This document shows, piece after piece, positions 44,228-52,678 of a DNA stretch of 64,000 nt (the first letter of the stretch is position 1; each line of letters starts with the position of its first letter). Location of the stretch: assembly GCA_030950375.1 (NCBI GenBank), contig JAUZRN010000011.1:1-64000 (forward strand). Direction: 5' to 3'. The stretch comes from Rhodothermus sp. (GTDB taxonomy: Bacteria; Bacteroidota; Rhodothermia; Rhodothermales; Rhodothermaceae). Under the pieces are notes generated by a model, which saw only the letters and a list, made by a program, of their open reading frames with translations, was not told the DNA's origin and did not search any database. The translations under genes were made by a program, and so were the position numbers.

Positions 44228-45406
44228 ATGTCTATGACCGAGTTCATTCGTCTTCTGACCCGGCAACTACAGGTGGCTTTCCCCCCTTCCCAGGCCTACC
44301 CCCTGCATACCCTACGTCGGCTGGGAATACCCGATGCCCTCACACATTACCTGCAGCATCAGGCAATCGCTCGGGCAGAGGCTCGGCTTCCTTCTCTTGA
44401 TAACACCTGGTTCGAAGTCGAAGCACCCGAAGTTCAACAAACCTATCAAGCGCTGTGCACCCGATTGCGTTCGCATCTACGCATTCCGCCCCAGGTATGG
44501 CCAGAACTGCTCAGCCAGAGCGTTCAGGCTCTGGTGCAGTACCTGACTCGACCGATCCACACACTCACGACCCACATCTTCTCGGAAGATGAAGTGCTAC
44601 CAGCCGAAAAGGTACTGCAGCGTATGCACTGGTTTCTCCCCTATGCCTACTTCCGAGAAGCCGTTGCCCTGTACGTCGAGGAAAAACAGATCAACCAGCT
44701 ACAACGGCGGCGTTTCACCGAGCTGTTGCACCGCATCGATCGGAAGCTGACGGCTGACTTTGATGCCGACGCCTGGCTGCGGCTGCTTCGCCCGCTTTAC
44801 GAACTGGCTGCCCTGCTACCGGAACGGCCAACAGCGCTTCCAGCCTCCCTGCTGATCGCCTTCTTTGCAGAGAAACAACAGCCGTACCTGGTGCAGCGAC
44901 TCCAGGCGAAAGGCCCCGCCCTGCTGACAGCCGAAACGCTGCATGCACTGATCGCCGATAAGCCGTCCATAACCACCGAATCCGAAGAAGAAGCAACGCT
45001 CCCCCTGTGGCGCCGCTTTCAACTTCAGCAGACAGCGCCCGAAGATGCCCAGGCACCTACCATCGGCACCACCCCCCTTCCCCGCTGGATGCAGTTTTAC
45101 CAAAAACCGCTGACTGAACAAATCCCGGAGCCTCCCACGGCCGACCTGGAACGAGAAGTGCTCGGCGAAACCGGCCTGCGCAATCGCGAACTGTTCATCA
45201 CGCATTTGTTCCGTGGAGACCGGGCCGCCTACGAACGCGTACTGCGCCGGCTACGCGACACGCCCACCTGGACCGAAGCCTCTCAGCTTATCGCGGAAGA
45301 AGTATTCCGTCGCTACCACGTGAATATCTACAGCGAACCGGCCGTCGCCTTTACCGACGCCGTTGAGCGTCGATACCGAAAAAACCGGGCATCCCCCTTG
45401 CAATAA
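44228..45406 (+). CDS. Conserved-looking soluble protein, unknown function
   Basis: 392 residues, no signal peptide or membrane segment. Mostly helical by eye, with a Thr/Glu-rich linker near 255-270 (ITTESEEEATLPLWRRFQLQ) followed by a tail with PLPRWMQFYQKPL, and a compact C-terminal helical region ending in HVNIYSEPAVAFTDAVERRYRKN. The composition and codon use look native. No catalytic motif is recognised. It is preceded by an imperfect hairpin near 44197-44225 just before the start. Confidence 0.7.
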   Translation: MSMTEFIRLLTRQLQVAFPPSQAYPLHTLRRLGIPDALTHYLQHQAIARAEARLPSLDNTWFEVEAPEVQQTYQALCTRLRSHLRIPPQVWPELLSQSVQALVQYLTRPIHTLTTHIFSEDEVLPAEKVLQRMHWFLPYAYFREAVALYVEEKQINQLQRRRFTELLHRIDRKLTADFDADAWLRLLRPLYELAALLPERPTALPASLLIAFFAEKQQPYLVQRLQAKGPALLTAETLHALIADKPSITTESEEEATLPLWRRFQLQQTAPEDAQAPTIGTTPLPRWMQFYQKPLTEQIPEPPTADLEREVLGETGLRNRELFITHLFRGDRAAYERVLRRLRDTPTWTEASQLIAEEVFRRYHVNIYSEPAVAFTDAVERRYRKNRASPLQ

Positions 45407-45468: not shown

Positions 45469-47646
45469 GTGGTACGGGGATTATTGTTGCTGTGGCTTGT
45501 CTGGTGCCTCATAGATACCACGCAGGCGCAAGATACGACCACAACCAGAACGGCGGCTCCGCTGGAGCGTCTGCAGGCCTTTCCTTCCGAAGAAATTCCG
45601 TTCGATCGGCGGTTGCGCCTGCTGGGCACCAGCCTGGTTGGCTTATTGCCGCCTGCCGACAGTCTGGATGAACCCACCCTGCTTGAATACCTGGCGCATC
45701 TGTACAACCATCAGGCGCGCATCCTTAAAGCAGAAGCGGCTGGTGAGCTGGAAACAGCCGCCCGCTTGCTTGACGAAGCGCTTGAGGCCCTGGCCATGCT
45801 GAGCCGCCAGCCCCACATTGCTTCTAATGTGCGCTTCCGGGAACTATACCGTTCGCTGATTACGGAGTACGAACAGCTCTATGGCATACCGCCGGACACG
45901 TTGACCCTGAGCTACGGCGACATCTTTGCCTTTCGTGAAGCGATGTTTGCAGCCATGGACGCTGTGCGCGAGCCGCTGCTGGAGGACGTGGCCCCCCTCA
46001 ATCTGCCTGCTCCTCACAGCACCGTGCCGCTCACCATGAACCGGCTTGTCAAAATGAGCATAGACTATCTGTTGCGCGAGCCGGAACAACATCTATTGCG
46101 CTGGCTGAGTCGGGCGGAGACCTACTTTCCCATGATCGAGCACATCTTTAAAGAAGAAGGCGTCCCAGATGAGCTCAAATACCTGGCTATGATCGAAAGC
46201 GGCCTCAATCCCTACGCTCGGAGCCGAGCCGGGGCCGTAGGTATGTGGCAATTCATGGCTGGAACAGCCCGTCTCTATGGGCTGCGCATCACGCCCTGGG
46301 TAGACGAACGCCGGGACCCGGAAAAATCCACCCGTGCGGCCGCACGCCACCTGAAAGATCTGTACGCCCTGTTTGAGGACTGGCATTTAGCGCTGGCCGC
46401 CTATAATGCCGGCGCGGGACGGGTTCGGCGTGCACTCAGCCGAGCTGCAGTTCGTCATGGTACCGAGCAGCTCACCTTCTGGGACATCTATCCGTATCTA
46501 CCGCGCGAGACGCGTAACTACGTTCCTATGTTCATAGCAACAGCCCTTGTGGCCTCCAATCCAGCGGCTCTGAACCTGACCGTCCAGCCTGGCCCCCGCT
46601 ATGAATACGACTATGTGCCCGTACAGGGCATGCTTTCCCTGGAAGAGATTGCGCGCATGGCAGGGACCGATGTGGCTACGCTACGTGCCCTGAATCCCGA
46701 GCTGCGTCGCAGCATCCTGCCGCCCACGCAGGGCCCCTACTTCATTCGTTTACCCCTGGGTAGTTACGCTCGTTTTGCAGCAGCCTATGCGCAGCTTCCC
46801 GAAGATCGGAAGCGTCCCGTCACGACCTACACGGTACGCCGTGGAGACGCACTCAGCATCATTGCCCGACGCTTTGGGGTAAGTGTCTCAGCGCTCATGC
46901 GCGCCAATGGCTTGCGAAGCACCCTGATTCGACCGGGACAGCGGCTGATCGTGCCGGTACCTCGTTACAAAAGCGCACAGGCCCTGCAACTGGCCGAAGC
47001 GGTGCCGGTGCGTGTGCAGTATGGCGGTCGATCCATACGCCCGCTTCGCGTTGTTTCGCCTGCAGCAAAAGCACCGGCTACCCCTTCAGCCCAGCCTGCC
47101 GCTCTGGAAACAGCAGCCCCTGAACCGGCCACCGCCCCGTCCGACAGAACCACCTCCACCGATGCCAGAGCCCCCACACGCGTCGTCTACACGGTACGCC
47201 CGGGCGATGCGCTTAGCAAGATTGCCCGGAGGTATGGCATTTCGGTAGCCGATCTCAAGCGCTGGAATCGCCTCTCCGGTAATACCATCCGCGTCGGACA
47301 GGAACTGGTGCTGTATTTGTCGGAGCCGGTCATGCCAGAACGAGTGGTGTACCGCGTGCGTCCCGGCGACACGCTCAGCGAAATCGCCCAGCGCTTCGGC
47401 GTATCCGTACGAGATCTCAAACGCTGGAATGGCCTGCGCTCCAACCGCATCTACGTCGGACAACGCCTGAGCATCTATCCGGAAGCGGAGGTCTTACGGG
47501 GCTATACCGTCTATCACGTACAGCCCGGCGACACGCTCAGCGAAATCGCCCAGCGCTTCGGCGTATCCGTACGAGATCTCAAACGCTGGAATGGCCTGCG
47601 CTCCAACCGCATCTACGTCGGACAACGCCTGAAAATCTTTTCCTGA
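45469..47646 (+). CDS. MltD-like lytic transglycosylase with LysM repeats
   Basis: 725 residues with a GTG start and a signal peptide (about 1-20). The SLT catalytic domain (about 200-360) has [24 protein letters not shown], catalytic Glu about 243, then [10 protein letters not shown]. Four LysM peptidoglycan-binding domains follow (from about 454, 574, 628 and 682), and a degenerate fifth lies near 380. The last two are 54 residues apart and identical over 36 residues, from an exact 109-base DNA repeat. MltD enzymes cleave glycan strands to 1,6-anhydro muropeptides during wall growth or envelope assembly. Confidence 0.93.
47362..47632 (+). repeat. 109-base exact direct repeat within the LysM region
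   Basis: Positions 47362-47470 and 47524-47632 are identical at every base. The repeat spacing of 162 bases equals 54 codons, one LysM unit plus linker, so the reading frame is preserved. The linkers between copies differ. The earlier LysM copies are diverged at the DNA level. Confidence 0.95.
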
Positions 47647-47792: not shown

Positions 47793-48299
47793 ATGTATGA
47801 CGAGCAACTCCGCAAACTGATTGAACAGTTTCGCGCAAAATTTCTGGAGCTTTCCAACGAAGACATTCAACGCCTCGTTGAAGAAACCAGAGCAGAAGCG
47901 CTGGCGGAAGCCCGAGCAATCATCAAAGAGCAGATGCTCCAGGCCATTCTGGAGCAATCGGCTCGCTTGCAGGCTCATAAGGCGATGCCCCAACCAGCTA
48001 CTGCAGCGCAGCCGACCGTTGCCCAACCGGCAGAAGCCCCCAAGCGTCCCCCTTTTGAGACACCCCGGGTGACGCTGGTCAGCCGTCCCGAAACACCTCC
48101 GGCACCGCCTTCGGAAAAATCGGCGCAGGCTACGCCTGCACCAGCGGCTGTCGAAACGGAGCAAAACGGATCAGAAATTGAGGGCGCGCGCCAGATTCTA
48201 CGCGAGATCGAAAACCTTCGCCAGCAGCTGAGTGCCAACGAGGAATGGCTCACGCGGGGTAGTTCGGCTGAAGACGAAGCGGATCATGCCGGAACCTGA
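47793..48299 (+). CDS. Coiled-coil/Pro-rich protein paired with GvpF/L
   Basis: 168 residues. Residues 1-65 are a charged helical module (QRLVEETRAEALAEARAIIKE, then LQAILEQSARLQ), 66-135 a Pro/Ala-rich linker, and 140-168 a short coiled coil (ILREIENLRQQLSANEEWL). The N-terminal module resembles the N-terminus of the next gene (RQEALVLARAVLKQWWLQAILEQVTR), so the two share a paralogous segment. There is no membrane segment. The gene overlaps the GvpF/L gene by 14 bases. Function unknown; possibly a partner or scaffold of the GvpF/L protein. Confidence 0.75.
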   Translation: MYDEQLRKLIEQFRAKFLELSNEDIQRLVEETRAEALAEARAIIKEQMLQAILEQSARLQAHKAMPQPATAAQPTVAQPAEAPKRPPFETPRVTLVSRPETPPAPPSEKSAQATPAPAAVETEQNGSEIEGARQILREIENLRQQLSANEEWLTRGSSAEDEADHAGT

Positions 48300-49191
48300 G
48301 CTCGACAGCCCAGCAGCCCGCTGGTATTTTTCTGAAAGGGAAGTATACCAGCTGACCGAGGCTTCCCGTCAGGAAGCGCTGGTGCTGGCGCGTGCCGTAC
48401 TCAAGCAGTGGTGGTTGCAGGCCATCCTCGAGCAAGTAACCCGCCACCTACATCCTATCACGGCTCCAGAATCCCAGGTTTACTACGTCTACGGTATTAC
48501 ATGGGCCGGCCAATCGGTCCGTGGGCCGGAACCAGTGGCGCTCATTCCCTTCCGTAATGTGCAGGCCATCGTACGGCGCGTCCCGGCCCGTGATTATAGT
48601 CTGGAAGCTATCCGGCAGCGCCTTCACGACACGGAGTGGCTACGTGCCCAGCTTCGGGCACATCATCAGTTTCTGGCCTCTTTGCAGCTCGAAGGCCCGC
48701 TGCTCCCCTTACGCTTTGGCACGATCTGTCCCGAACAGACGCATGTCCGAGCGCTGCTGGAGGCCAATTACGAAGATTTCTGCGCCACGCTGGCATTGTT
48801 GGACGGTCGGCAGGAATGGCTATTTCAGCTCGACGTTGATCGTGCGCGTCTGAAAGAGGCCGTCGCGCTGGTCCAGGGCACAACTGCCGACGACCCATCG
48901 CTCACGGTCGAAGTAGATCGGCTCTTGCAAATAGCGGCCGAGCACTGTCACCAGACACTCTCCGCCTTGGCTGACCGGGCCAAAGTGCAACGTCTGGAGG
49001 TCCGACGCCATCCTGTACTACGCGCCGCCTATCTGGTTGCTACCGAACGCACAAGTGCTTTCCGTGATCGTGTGGCCTCGCTGGAGCGGGCCTACCGGAC
49101 ACTGGGCATCCGACTACAGCTGAACGGCCCTTCACCCCCGTTCAACTTCGCCCGGCTGCATCTGGAAGTACCAGCCGCTGCTCCGGTATGA
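48286..49191 (+). CDS. Orphan GvpF/GvpL-family protein with N-terminal extension
   Basis: 301 residues from the ATG at 48286. The N-terminal 60 residues are a helical module shared with the upstream gene. From about 63, YYVYGITWAG begins a GvpL/GvpF domain with VQAIVRRVPARDYSLEAI, then LPLRFGTICPEQTHVRALLE and a DGRQEWLFQLDVD segment. GvpF/L proteins are accessory gas-vesicle proteins that bind the structural protein GvpA. No gvpA or other gas vesicle gene lies in this window. It may therefore be a repurposed GvpF/L, or the rest of the locus may lie elsewhere. Confidence 0.85.
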   Translation: MPEPELDSPAARWYFSEREVYQLTEASRQEALVLARAVLKQWWLQAILEQVTRHLHPITAPESQVYYVYGITWAGQSVRGPEPVALIPFRNVQAIVRRVPARDYSLEAIRQRLHDTEWLRAQLRAHHQFLASLQLEGPLLPLRFGTICPEQTHVRALLEANYEDFCATLALLDGRQEWLFQLDVDRARLKEAVALVQGTTADDPSLTVEVDRLLQIAAEHCHQTLSALADRAKVQRLEVRRHPVLRAAYLVATERTSAFRDRVASLERAYRTLGIRLQLNGPSPPFNFARLHLEVPAAAPV

Positions 49192-49631
49192 AACACCGCT
49201 GGCACCCCCCTGCCTGGATGCCGGTTACCCTGTTGTTTGTTTACGGAACCCTTCGTGGCCAATTGCCCCGCTTTCTTCCACCCACCCTGCACGAAGCGAT
49301 TCGCTCGCTGGGACGTGCCTGCTACCGGGGGCGTTTGTACGATCTCGGCGCCTATTCCGGCGCCGTCCCCGATCCCGACGGCCTCGTACACGGCGAATTA
49401 TATGCCCTGCAACAAGACCAGGCCGCCCGTATCTTTGCCTATTTGGATGAATATGAGGGGTACGATCCAGACCGACCGGAAGCCGGTGAATACCGGCGTG
49501 TCCAAGATACTGTGTTCCTACCGGACGGCCATCCAGTGTCGGCCTGGATCTACCTGTACCACGGCGATCTGTCGCAGGCACGCCTTATCTCATCTGGCGA
49601 CTATCTGCGCGATCGCTCGCTGCAACCCTGA
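49188..49631 (+). CDS. Gamma-glutamylcyclotransferase-like protein (AIG2/GGCT fold)
   Basis: 147 residues. The family signature is FVYGTLRGQLPRFL near the N-terminus, with GRLYDLGAYSGAV, the LDEYEGYDPDRPEAGEYRR acidic catalytic segment, and a final AWIYLYHGD. The fold acts on gamma-glutamyl amines or dipeptides; specificity is unclear. It is ATGA-coupled to the GvpF/L gene (49188-49191) and convergent with sdhB. Confidence 0.85.
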   Translation: MKHRWHPPAWMPVTLLFVYGTLRGQLPRFLPPTLHEAIRSLGRACYRGRLYDLGAYSGAVPDPDGLVHGELYALQQDQAARIFAYLDEYEGYDPDRPEAGEYRRVQDTVFLPDGHPVSAWIYLYHGDLSQARLISSGDYLRDRSLQP

Positions 49632-50348
49632 TCACCGCGCAGCCACCTCCATCACAGCACGCCGCTTCAACGCCGACAGCCAGCGGGAAATGTCAATCTC
49701 CTTGGGGCAGGCTTCATTGCAATTGAAGATCGTATAACACTTCCAGAGTCCTTCGCGCGAGTCAACCACCGGTAATCGCTCGTCGGCCCCTTCGTCGCGT
49801 GAGTCAAAGGTGTACCGATAGGCCTTAAGCAGGGCTGCCGGCCCCAGGTATTCCGGATCCGCCCAGGTGCTGGGGCAGGCATGCGTACAAGCCCCGCACA
49901 TGATACATTTGGTGGCGTCTTCAATCAGCGCAAATTCTTCAGGGCTCTGCAACCGCTCTCGCTCAGGCGGTGGCGTGCGTGTAATCAGCCAGGGCTTAAC
50001 AGCCCGATATTTTTCGAAGAAACGGCTCTGGTCAATGACCAGATCTTTGATCACCGGAGCTGTGGGCAACGGCTCGAATGTAATCGTATCGCCTTCTCCT
50101 TTAACCAGATCTTTGACCAGCACTGAGCAGGCCAGCCGGTTTTCGCCATTAATTTTCATAGCATCCGAGCCACAAATGCCATGACCACAGCTCTTGCGGA
50201 ACGTCAGCGAGCCGTCAATATGCCATTTGATATGCAAAAGCAACGACAACGCGCTGTCCATGGGCTCCGCATCGACCTCGTAGGTCTCCCAGTACGGCTC
50301 GGCGTCGGTCTCCGGATTGAAGCGTTTGATTTTGACCTTGACTTTCAT
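49632..50348 (-). CDS. sdhB: Succinate dehydrogenase iron-sulfur subunit
   Basis: 238 residues from the ATG at 50348. The N-terminal plant-type ferredoxin motif is SCGHGICGSDAMKINGENRLAC, with Asp at the third position as in E. coli SdhB. The C-terminal [4Fe-4S]/[3Fe-4S] part has CIMCGACTHACPSTW and a further CYTIFNCNEACP. It relays electrons from FAD in SdhA to the quinone site in SdhCD. Last gene of sdhCDAB; it lies one base from the convergent GGCT gene. Confidence 0.96.
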   Translation of the reverse strand: MKVKVKIKRFNPETDAEPYWETYEVDAEPMDSALSLLLHIKWHIDGSLTFRKSCGHGICGSDAMKINGENRLACSVLVKDLVKGEGDTITFEPLPTAPVIKDLVIDQSRFFEKYRAVKPWLITRTPPPERERLQSPEEFALIEDATKCIMCGACTHACPSTWADPEYLGPAALLKAYRYTFDSRDEGADERLPVVDSREGLWKCYTIFNCNEACPKEIDISRWLSALKRRAVMEVAAR

Positions 50349-50397
50349 GGCTACCGCTCCATCGATTGGGCGACCACGTGGCAACCAGGCGGGTCGC

Positions 50398-52137
50398 TCA
50401 GTACTTCCGTTCTTTTGGTTGGAATCGGGTGATCGTCACCGGTTTATAGTCGAACCGGTAACTATCTTCCCCTTCTCGGTAAATCAGCGTATGTTTGAGC
50501 CAGTTTTCGTCGTCTCGTTTGGGATAGTCTTCGCGGGAATGGGCCCCTCGACTTTCTGTCCGATTCAGGGCTGAACGCGTGATTACTTCAGACAGATCGA
50601 CCAGGAAGCCCAGCTCGACAGCATCCATCAACTCGGTGTTGAACCGCTTGCTTTTGTCCCGCACCACCACGCGCCTGGCGCGCTCCCGGATCTGTTTCAG
50701 ATCGTTCAGCGCGGTGGTCAGCGTCTCCTCGTTCCGAAATACGGAGACGTTATCCATCATGGTCTGCTGCAGATCGGCGCGCACCACGGCCACGGGCTCT
50801 CCCTGCGTTCGCCCCAGGATATCTTCCAGCATTTCGCGGACGCGCCGGTCCGGGTTGTCAGGCAGCGGCTCCTTCTTGCGACCCTCTTTGCGAAGCGTTT
50901 CGGCCATATGGATCCCTGCACGCCGCCCGAAGACAACCAGGTCAACCAGCGAGTTGGTCCCCAGCCGGTTAGCGCCATGCACCGACACGCACGCGCATTC
51001 ACCTACCGCGTAGAGACCCGGTACAATGCTACCCCGACCGGCCCGCTCCACCTGCCCATCATAGTTGGTAGGAATCCCTCCCATTGCATAGTGGCAGGTG
51101 GGAGCCACGGGAATCGGCTCTTTTACCGGATCAATGCCCAGGTATGTACGACAAAAGGTGGCAATTTCAGGCAACTTGGTTTCAATTACCTCGCGCCCGA
51201 CGTGCCGCAGGTCCAGGTAAACGTAATCTTTTCCGTTGATACCCCGTCCCTCTCGAATTTCTTTGTAGATGCACTGTGAGACCAGGTCGCGGGGTGCCAG
51301 GTCCTTTACCGTAGGCGCATAGCGTTCCATGAAGCGCTCGCCTTTGTCGTTGAGCAGAATGCCACCTTCCCCACGTGCTCCTTCGGTCACCAGAATACCC
51401 AGTCGGTAAAGGCCTGTGGGATGGAACTGGACAAATTCCATATCCTCAAGCGGCAGGCCGCTGCGCAGCACGATGGCCATGCCATCCCCGGTGCTGGCAT
51501 GGGCGTTCGAGGTCGTTTTGTAGACGCGCCCATAGCCGCCCGTGGCCAGACAGACCATCTTGGCGTGAAAGACGTGAATTTCCCCGGTAAGCAACTCATA
51601 GGCCACCACCCCGCAACAGACGCCCTCGGGCGTCATGATCAGGTCCAACGCCTGAAATTCATCGTAGAAGCGAACCTGATTCTTGACACACTGATCGTAA
51701 AGCGTATGCAGAATGGCATGGCCAGTGCGGTCTGCCGCATGGCAGGCACGTCGGACCGGCGCCTCACCGAAATTTCGCGTGTGCCCCCCAAAGCGGCGCT
51801 GGGCAATTTTCCCCTCTTTGTTACGGCTAAAGGGCACGCCATAGTGCTCCAGCTCGATGATGGTCCGGGGCGCATCCTGACACATGATCTCAATAGCATC
51901 CTGATCGCCCAGGTAGTCGCTCCCCTTGACCGTGTCGAAGGCGTGCCAGAGCCAGTGGTCTTCTTCTTCGTTGCCCAGGGCAGCGCCAATCCCTCCCTGG
52001 GCTGCTCCCGTGTGCGAACGAAGCGGATGAAGCTTGGAAATCACGGCCACATCTGCGCCTCCCTCCTTGGCGTAAAGCGCCGCCATCAAGCCCGAACCAC
52101 CGGCTCCTACGATGACGACGTCGTGCGAAAAAATCAT
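50398..52137 (-). CDS. sdhA: Succinate dehydrogenase flavoprotein subunit
   Basis: 579 residues from the ATG at 52137. FAD-binding motif [17 protein letters not shown] at the N-terminus, the covalent FAD-attachment His in [14 protein letters not shown], the substrate-binding [21 protein letters not shown] and the C-terminal [21 protein letters not shown]. It oxidises succinate to fumarate. It follows sdhD with a 37-base gap and is followed by sdhB after 49 bases. Confidence 0.97.
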
Positions 52138-52174
52138 GGCAACATTCGGTTTGCAATCAACCCGTAGGTTTCTT

Positions 52175-52678
52175 TCAGGATGCAGGCATATACCCCCATC
52201 CGGCCACAATGATAGAATACAGCCCTACGATGAGCAGCACCAGTGCCAGCGTCCAGGAAAGCGTCTGCGCCAGCACGCGCCCGATGGGATGACGAATATA
52301 ATCGGTCAGGATATTGTTGAGGCCATAAAACCCGTGATGCAGGGCAAAAATCAAAAACAGAATGTTGAAGCCCTTCCAGAGCACGGCATATACGGGATCG
52401 GCCAATCGCAGCATCACCACGTCATACGGGGTGACTTCAGCATCGGGACCATAACGCGCCCGCACCGCTTCTTTGGCCGCCTCCGGATAGTCGGGCAACG
52501 CGCCCGCCTCAATCTGCTCCTGGGAGAGCACCTGGACCGCCACACTGGCCGTCTGCGCATCGTAGTGCTGGACCCAGAAATGAGTAATCAGCAAAAACAC
52601 GAGAAACGTCCCGGTAATGCGATGCAGAAACCAGTGCATGGCATAGGAACGGGACGTCTTACCATACCGGGTAGCCAT
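52175..52678 (-). CDS. sdhD: Succinate dehydrogenase membrane anchor subunit
   Basis: 167 residues with three membrane segments (about 14-35, 98-118, 135-155) and a hydrophilic loop of about 55 residues between the first two, longer than usual. The first helix, [21 protein letters not shown], has the His and Arg typical of the quinone-binding anchor. It complements SdhC as the second anchor of the membrane quinone site. Confidence 0.88.

Follow-up and report, generated by a model that had tools for sequence, protein, structure and literature searches.

The orphan GvpF/L protein of Rhodothermus, judged by the gene content of its genome and of related genomes, most probably does not belong to a gas vesicle, a conclusion that is well supported. 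Its gene lies in the window, the 64,000-nucleotide stretch of Rhodothermus sp. DNA analyzed here (contig JAUZRN010000011.1, positions 1 to 64,000), and its product P0002 shares a short, charged N-terminal helical module with P0001, the product of the overlapping upstream gene. Stand-alone copies of this module accompany orphan GvpF/L genes in related families, and in other families the GvpF/L domain ends a giant protein made of helical repeats. The two layouts, the restriction of strong module matches to genomes with an orphan GvpF/L, and the lack of a recognisable GvpA led us to propose that P0001 and P0002 belong together in a single cytosolic assembly, other than a gas vesicle, around the GvpF/L domain, a reading to which we give nearly even chances.

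An overlapping gene pair with a shared N-terminal module

The features of the pair and of its neighbours are as follows.

47793..48299, + strand: P0001, module protein of 168 aa (ORF call)
47850..47966, + strand: shared module in P0001, residues 20-58 (BLASTP, shuffles, hhalign)
48286..49191, + strand: P0002, module and GvpF/L domain, 301 aa (ORF call, Pfam)
48328..48444, + strand: shared module in P0002, residues 15-53 (BLASTP, shuffles, hhalign)
48481..49152, + strand: GvpL_GvpF domain (PF06386) of P0002, residues 66-289 (Pfam)
45469..47646, + strand: lytic transglycosylase (SLT) with LysM repeats (MltD/LysM), a neighbour not counted in the system
49188..49631, + strand: GGACT/AIG2-like gene, a neighbour not counted in the system
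49632..52209, - strand: sdhB and sdhA, convergent with the pair, neighbours not counted in the system

The original prediction had described two genes and a GvpF/L-like region starting at about residue 63 of P0002. Both genes were located as described, and Pfam assigned residues 66-289 to PF06386 with E = 2.9e-38 and 132.7 bits against a curated cut-off of 23.6, covering profile positions 2-244 of 245. The start of P0002 lies over the end of P0001 in a 14-nt overlap. P0001 is composed of a two-helix N-terminal module, a Pro-rich linker, and a C-terminal helix with the conserved motif ILxEIExIRxQIxxNExLL, and showed no convincing family match in Pfam, NCBIfam, PADLOC, or PHROGs. A promoter and terminator scan returned a single promoter-like site, which was located within the 5' end of P0002 and was at chance level.

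The N-termini of the two proteins were compared in several ways. BLASTP of P0001 against P0002 gave E = 3e-9 over the full alignment. The N-termini reached a local score of 88, compared with a shuffle mean of 24.4 (sd 4.6), and none of 5000 shuffles scored as high (z = 13.8); the best of 677 other tiles from the window ORFs scored 49. Separate ortholog profiles were aligned by hhalign over 39 columns at 97.4% with E = 9.6e-12 (97.9% and 5e-13 in another run). Furthermore, when all ORFs of the loci were searched with an HMM of the module built without any P0002 sequence, only module and GvpF/L proteins were detected at E < 1. The predicted N-terminal similarity therefore held in the profile comparison, at E of about 1e-11, although it extends over 38-39 residues and not over the 60 first proposed; the first 19 residues of P0001 form a separate helix that has no counterpart in P0002. 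The module is charged, not hydrophobic, and the hydrophobic moment of its helices did not differ from that of shuffles. A sequence match of the module in the PDB, to a mitoribosomal protein (E = 0.0025), was taken as a chance helix match.

An explanation to be weighed at this point is that the similarity reflects chance or the convergence of charged Ala/Leu-rich helices, the two proteins being functionally unrelated. Such helices are information-poor and the shared stretch is short, but the z value with no shuffle out of 5000 reaching the score, the profile E value, and the selectivity of the HMM built without P0002 all disfavour this account of P0001 and P0002, and we find it scarcely credible.

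Both genes are under purifying selection, which is strongest on the module. Against five Rhodothermus relatives, dN/dS of P0001 and P0002 was 0.07-0.15 where dS was finite. The module of P0001 gave dN of 0 against the L002 locus and dN/dS of 0.025 against L003, and the Pro-rich linker was the least conserved part of the protein (0.11-0.31). AF2 predicted helices at residues 2-19 and 22-64 of P0001 (block pLDDT 79-98 over residues 1-60), followed by a disordered linker and a C-terminal helix at residues 122-161 (pLDDT 92-95 over 131-150). The AF2 model of P0002, made from three sequences, had a pLDDT of 40 and was too poor for use. Since P0001, P0002, and related GvpF/L proteins had no hydrophobic stretch of membrane-helix grade, a cytosolic location is probable.

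Gas vesicle genes in the genome and in relatives

No GvpA gene had been noted in the window, and this observation could be extended to the whole genome (G000; 3.03 Mb, 99.6% complete), which has one GvpF/L. A genome search of G000, which gave no control match of its own, recognised no member of the GvpA family, and no normal gvp cluster containing the pair was found in the genome. The positive control for the GvpA, GvpK, and GvpG searches was G043, a genome of the same order in which three GvpF/L, three GvpA-family genes, GvpK, and GvpG lie close together as a true gvp cluster. GvpK was detected in neither G000 nor eight relatives by the search that found it in G043. For GvpG, G043 scored above the cut-off, and G000 gave only a sub-threshold match to the C-terminal half of the profile (G000:C39:34265-34345), with similar ones in G002, G004, G012, and G016 (frames of 78-88 aa). 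These matches were not counted, because they cover only that half of the profile and are located away from the GvpF/L locus.

GvpF/L was present in 25 of 60 relatives, 24 of which had no recognisable GvpA. When 296 genomes were drawn from the phylum, GvpA was missing from every GvpF/L-positive genome inside the order (15/15), whereas 25 of the 30 positive genomes outside the order had it (Fisher p = 4.5e-8, shared ancestry ignored). Genes in relatives were taken from our own ORF calls, absence stands for no match at the thresholds used, and sampling was within the window's phylum. The suggestion that the pair is possibly not part of a gas vesicle is thus well supported by the lack of GvpA and GvpK in G000, the detection of both in G043, and the orphan state in 24 of 25 GvpF/L-positive relatives.

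A lone GvpF/L was also observed at L090:5394-6296 (G113). The search for GvpA gave no match in this genome, although its family, f27, is rich in gas vesicles; the lone gene possibly represents a decayed or incompletely assembled gvp cluster.

Two conserved layouts of the orphan GvpF/L locus

Orphan GvpF/L genes occur in two conserved layouts, A and B, at different loci. Layout A was found in the window's own family (f1) and in f7 and f8. Its order is a 392-aa hypothetical protein gene, MltD/LysM, one to three small module genes, and the GvpF/L gene, convergent with sdhB-sdhA. The last small module gene is of the P0001 type and carries the C-terminal motif of P0001. The module is also present on the GvpF/L protein itself in f1 and f7, and the GvpF/L proteins of f8 gave a weak, short N-terminal match to it (full-sequence E 0.00025-0.0064).

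The SLT/LysM gene occupies the same position in the layout A loci of f1, f7, and f8, as does sdhB-sdhA in layout A loci. The sdh genes of f8 (L041, L045, L048) share only 27-30% identity with the sdh genes of the window but keep their position and orientation, and could be a replacement in place. The 392-aa protein, encoded at 44228-45406 of the window, had no convincing family match and is kept at the same layout A position with 26-87% identity. The stop codon of P0002 lies within the GGACT/AIG2-like gene, which is present in most Rhodothermus loci only; it was found neither in L033 nor in families f7 and f8. We considered whether the pair is functionally tied to the succinate dehydrogenase, MltD, or GGACT genes and rejected this. 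SDH and MltD are constant in layout A, but layout B is located elsewhere (pruA/lolCE), and we took the neighbours to mark position, not function.

Layout B was found in families f2, f4, f6, and f11. Here pruA is divergent from a long gene, which is followed by lolCE and, in most loci, a peroxiredoxin gene. The long gene encodes a giant protein of 710-1917 aa. From the N- to the C-terminus, the giant consists of the motif AKxALKxKLLxxxxQQAxxEL, helical repeats, a linker that is either acidic or Pro-rich, and the GvpF/L domain. Autocorrelation revealed a 44-residue period in 10 of 13 giants (z 3.5-17.9 at lag 44), the same period was seen by unit spacing in the L037 giant, and the two f6 giants have few repeat units. 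The number of repeat units above 3 bits was 2 to 17 per giant. The strongest hydrophobic period of the L046 giant (L046:5875-8955 is one giant gene) and of the L049 giant was 3.66-3.67 residues, corresponding to an 11-residue helical pattern; in L042 this period ranks after 4.4.

Relation of the giants to the module and descent of the orphan lineage

Strong module matches (E < 1e-20) were obtained in 11 of 60 relatives, all of which have an orphan GvpF/L; there were none in G043. The probability of this co-occurrence was 1.3e-5 (hypergeometric, relatedness ignored). Both proteins are kept together across the genus (seven of seven genomes) and in further families. Outside the order, the 296-genome draw gave only weak module matches, in one family (f30; E 0.001-0.01, frames of 522-525 aa); these and a G055 match (E 0.009) were taken as chance. 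In G025, the module genes are at the end of one contig and GvpF/L at the end of another, and in G046 a module match lies at a contig end, in an ORF resembling the start of a giant; both look like assembly breaks.

The N-terminal motif of the giants matched the module at 79% (E = 1.5e-5; decoys at most 5.9%) and their internal repeat at 95.7% (E = 8.4e-9; decoys at most 1.7%). Direct comparison of the module with the internal repeats gave a weak match (33%, 21 columns) that was above decoys. These profile comparisons weakly support the view that the N-terminal motif and the 44-residue repeats may be the same module as that of P0001. For the internal repeats convergence is possible, since short amphipathic helices can look alike.

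In the phylogenetic tree, the orphan GvpF/L domains were separated from the canonical domains, those of G043 among them, with a support of 88/99, which is under the starred level. The orphan domains formed the groups f1+f7+f8 (99/97) and f2+f4+f11 (98/94), with f6 apart. Together, tree and synteny are consistent with an orphan lineage that was inherited vertically within the order.

A second divergent GvpF/L-like group was observed in families f29 and f46 (L086:4574-6259, L087:4108-5565, L088:4476-5705, and L089:4157-5605), whose genomes have no recognisable GvpA. It resembles the orphan proteins in having a long N-terminal region, though one of a different type, before a C-terminal GvpF/L-like domain, but differs from them in its very divergent domain on a long branch, the lack of a module match, and its different neighbours.

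Comparison with known gas vesicle proteins

GvpF/L is regarded as a factor dedicated to gas vesicle assembly. The C-terminal domain of P0002 is homologous to the GvpF/GvpL accessory proteins (PF06386), and profile A2 matched the solved GvpF structures 4qsg and 6l5d by sequence (E 1e-4 and 1.9e-5, respectively). Unlike those proteins, the orphan occurs as one copy, carries an extra N-terminal module or repeats, is separate in the tree, and has no GvpA or GvpK in its genome.

The giants recall GvpC, a repeat protein of the outer gas vesicle surface that has 33-residue repeats in Anabaena. Both have helical repeats, and the repeat lengths, 33 and 44, are multiples of 11. However, the repeats of the giants are fused to GvpF/L and there is no shell to bind. 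Four giants scanned with Pfam had no GvpC match, and GvpL_GvpF was the only match at E ≤ 0.1. Halobacterium GvpC interacts strongly with GvpL (PMC9501494).

A literature search with few terms among open-licence papers yielded no account of GvpF/L without GvpA or of the giants. The GvpF/L domain is already known, and the architecture and the partner were not found in the libraries searched.

Proposed assembly and alternative explanations

In gas vesicles, GvpF binds GvpA, for which the first helix of GvpA alone suffices (PMC11445434), and GvpL contacts most other Gvp proteins, with GvpC among the strong partners (PMC9501494). The simplest reading of the orphan would be a retained helix-handling domain with its own helices as ligands. 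The conserved module helices of P0001 and P0002 would pack helix to helix, and stand-alone modules could align to form a bundle or rod. Holding or capping the module helices would be the task of the C-terminal GvpF/L domain, which might also nucleate the assembly or link it to another target. Elsewhere in the Rhodothermales, a single chain that combines helical repeats with a C-terminal GvpF/L would serve the same purpose; we infer that layouts A and B share this role, although their loci differ. The physical complex of P0001 and P0002, its rod-like form, and helix binding by GvpF/L are likewise inferred. The earlier suggestion that the shared helix points to one complex gains indirect support from the adjacency of module genes and GvpF/L in three families, the presence of the module on the GvpF/L protein in two of these, and the fusion of GvpF/L to helical repeats with a similar motif in four others. 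Points against the assembly are the weak direct match between module and internal repeats, the weak module matches of the f8 GvpF/L proteins, and the hydrophobic moment of the module, which did not stand out from shuffles. For the order as a whole, we tentatively put forward an assembly in which GvpF/L caps or nucleates an array of helical modules, provided as small proteins or as a giant, to give a rod or scaffold in the cytosol that is distinct from gas vesicles; this wider model seems plausible to us rather than probable.

The main rival is that GvpF/L took on a new role as a helix-binding adaptor or chaperone, the gene of its client lying elsewhere. P0001 would then be a dedicated regulator, or a decoy imitating the helix of P0002, and no polymer or scaffold would be built. 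GvpF has indeed been described as chaperone-like for GvpA (PMC11445434), f1 has only two copies of the module, and the neighbours give no structural hint. The one to three module genes of layout A and the up to 17 repeat units of layout B nevertheless look like building material rather than a regulator, and we consider the adaptor rather unlikely, if still a serious candidate. It is also conceivable that the pair is a relic of a gas vesicle cluster, in which GvpF/L outlived GvpA with no or residual function: the domain has its homologues in gas vesicle GvpF/L, and G043, from the same order, carries a complete cluster. A relic would hardly be expected to show purifying selection and a pair conserved in every one of the seven Rhodothermus genomes and in further families, and the G043 genome has no module and its canonical domains stand apart from the orphan ones in the tree (88/99); we regard this origin as improbable. 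Even more doubtful is a divergent gas vesicle or other hollow protein shell whose shell protein went unrecognised, with module proteins in the place of GvpA. The small proteins beside GvpF/L do recall the GvpA paralogues of gvp clusters, but the module is predicted to be all-helical and is charged, not hydrophobic, whereas GvpA is modelled as alpha-beta-beta-alpha (PMC9501494), and GvpK is missing as well.

Implications

The orphan lineage keeps GvpF/L without a recognisable shell gene and with a helical partner of its own, which is a warning against annotating such genes as gas vesicle genes. The pair also offers a simple two-gene system for asking what GvpF/L does alone. If the proposed assembly is correct, GvpF/L would be a general helix-assembly factor that is not specific to gas vesicles, and if the helices polymerise, the Rhodothermales proteins would form a new bacterial scaffold or filament.
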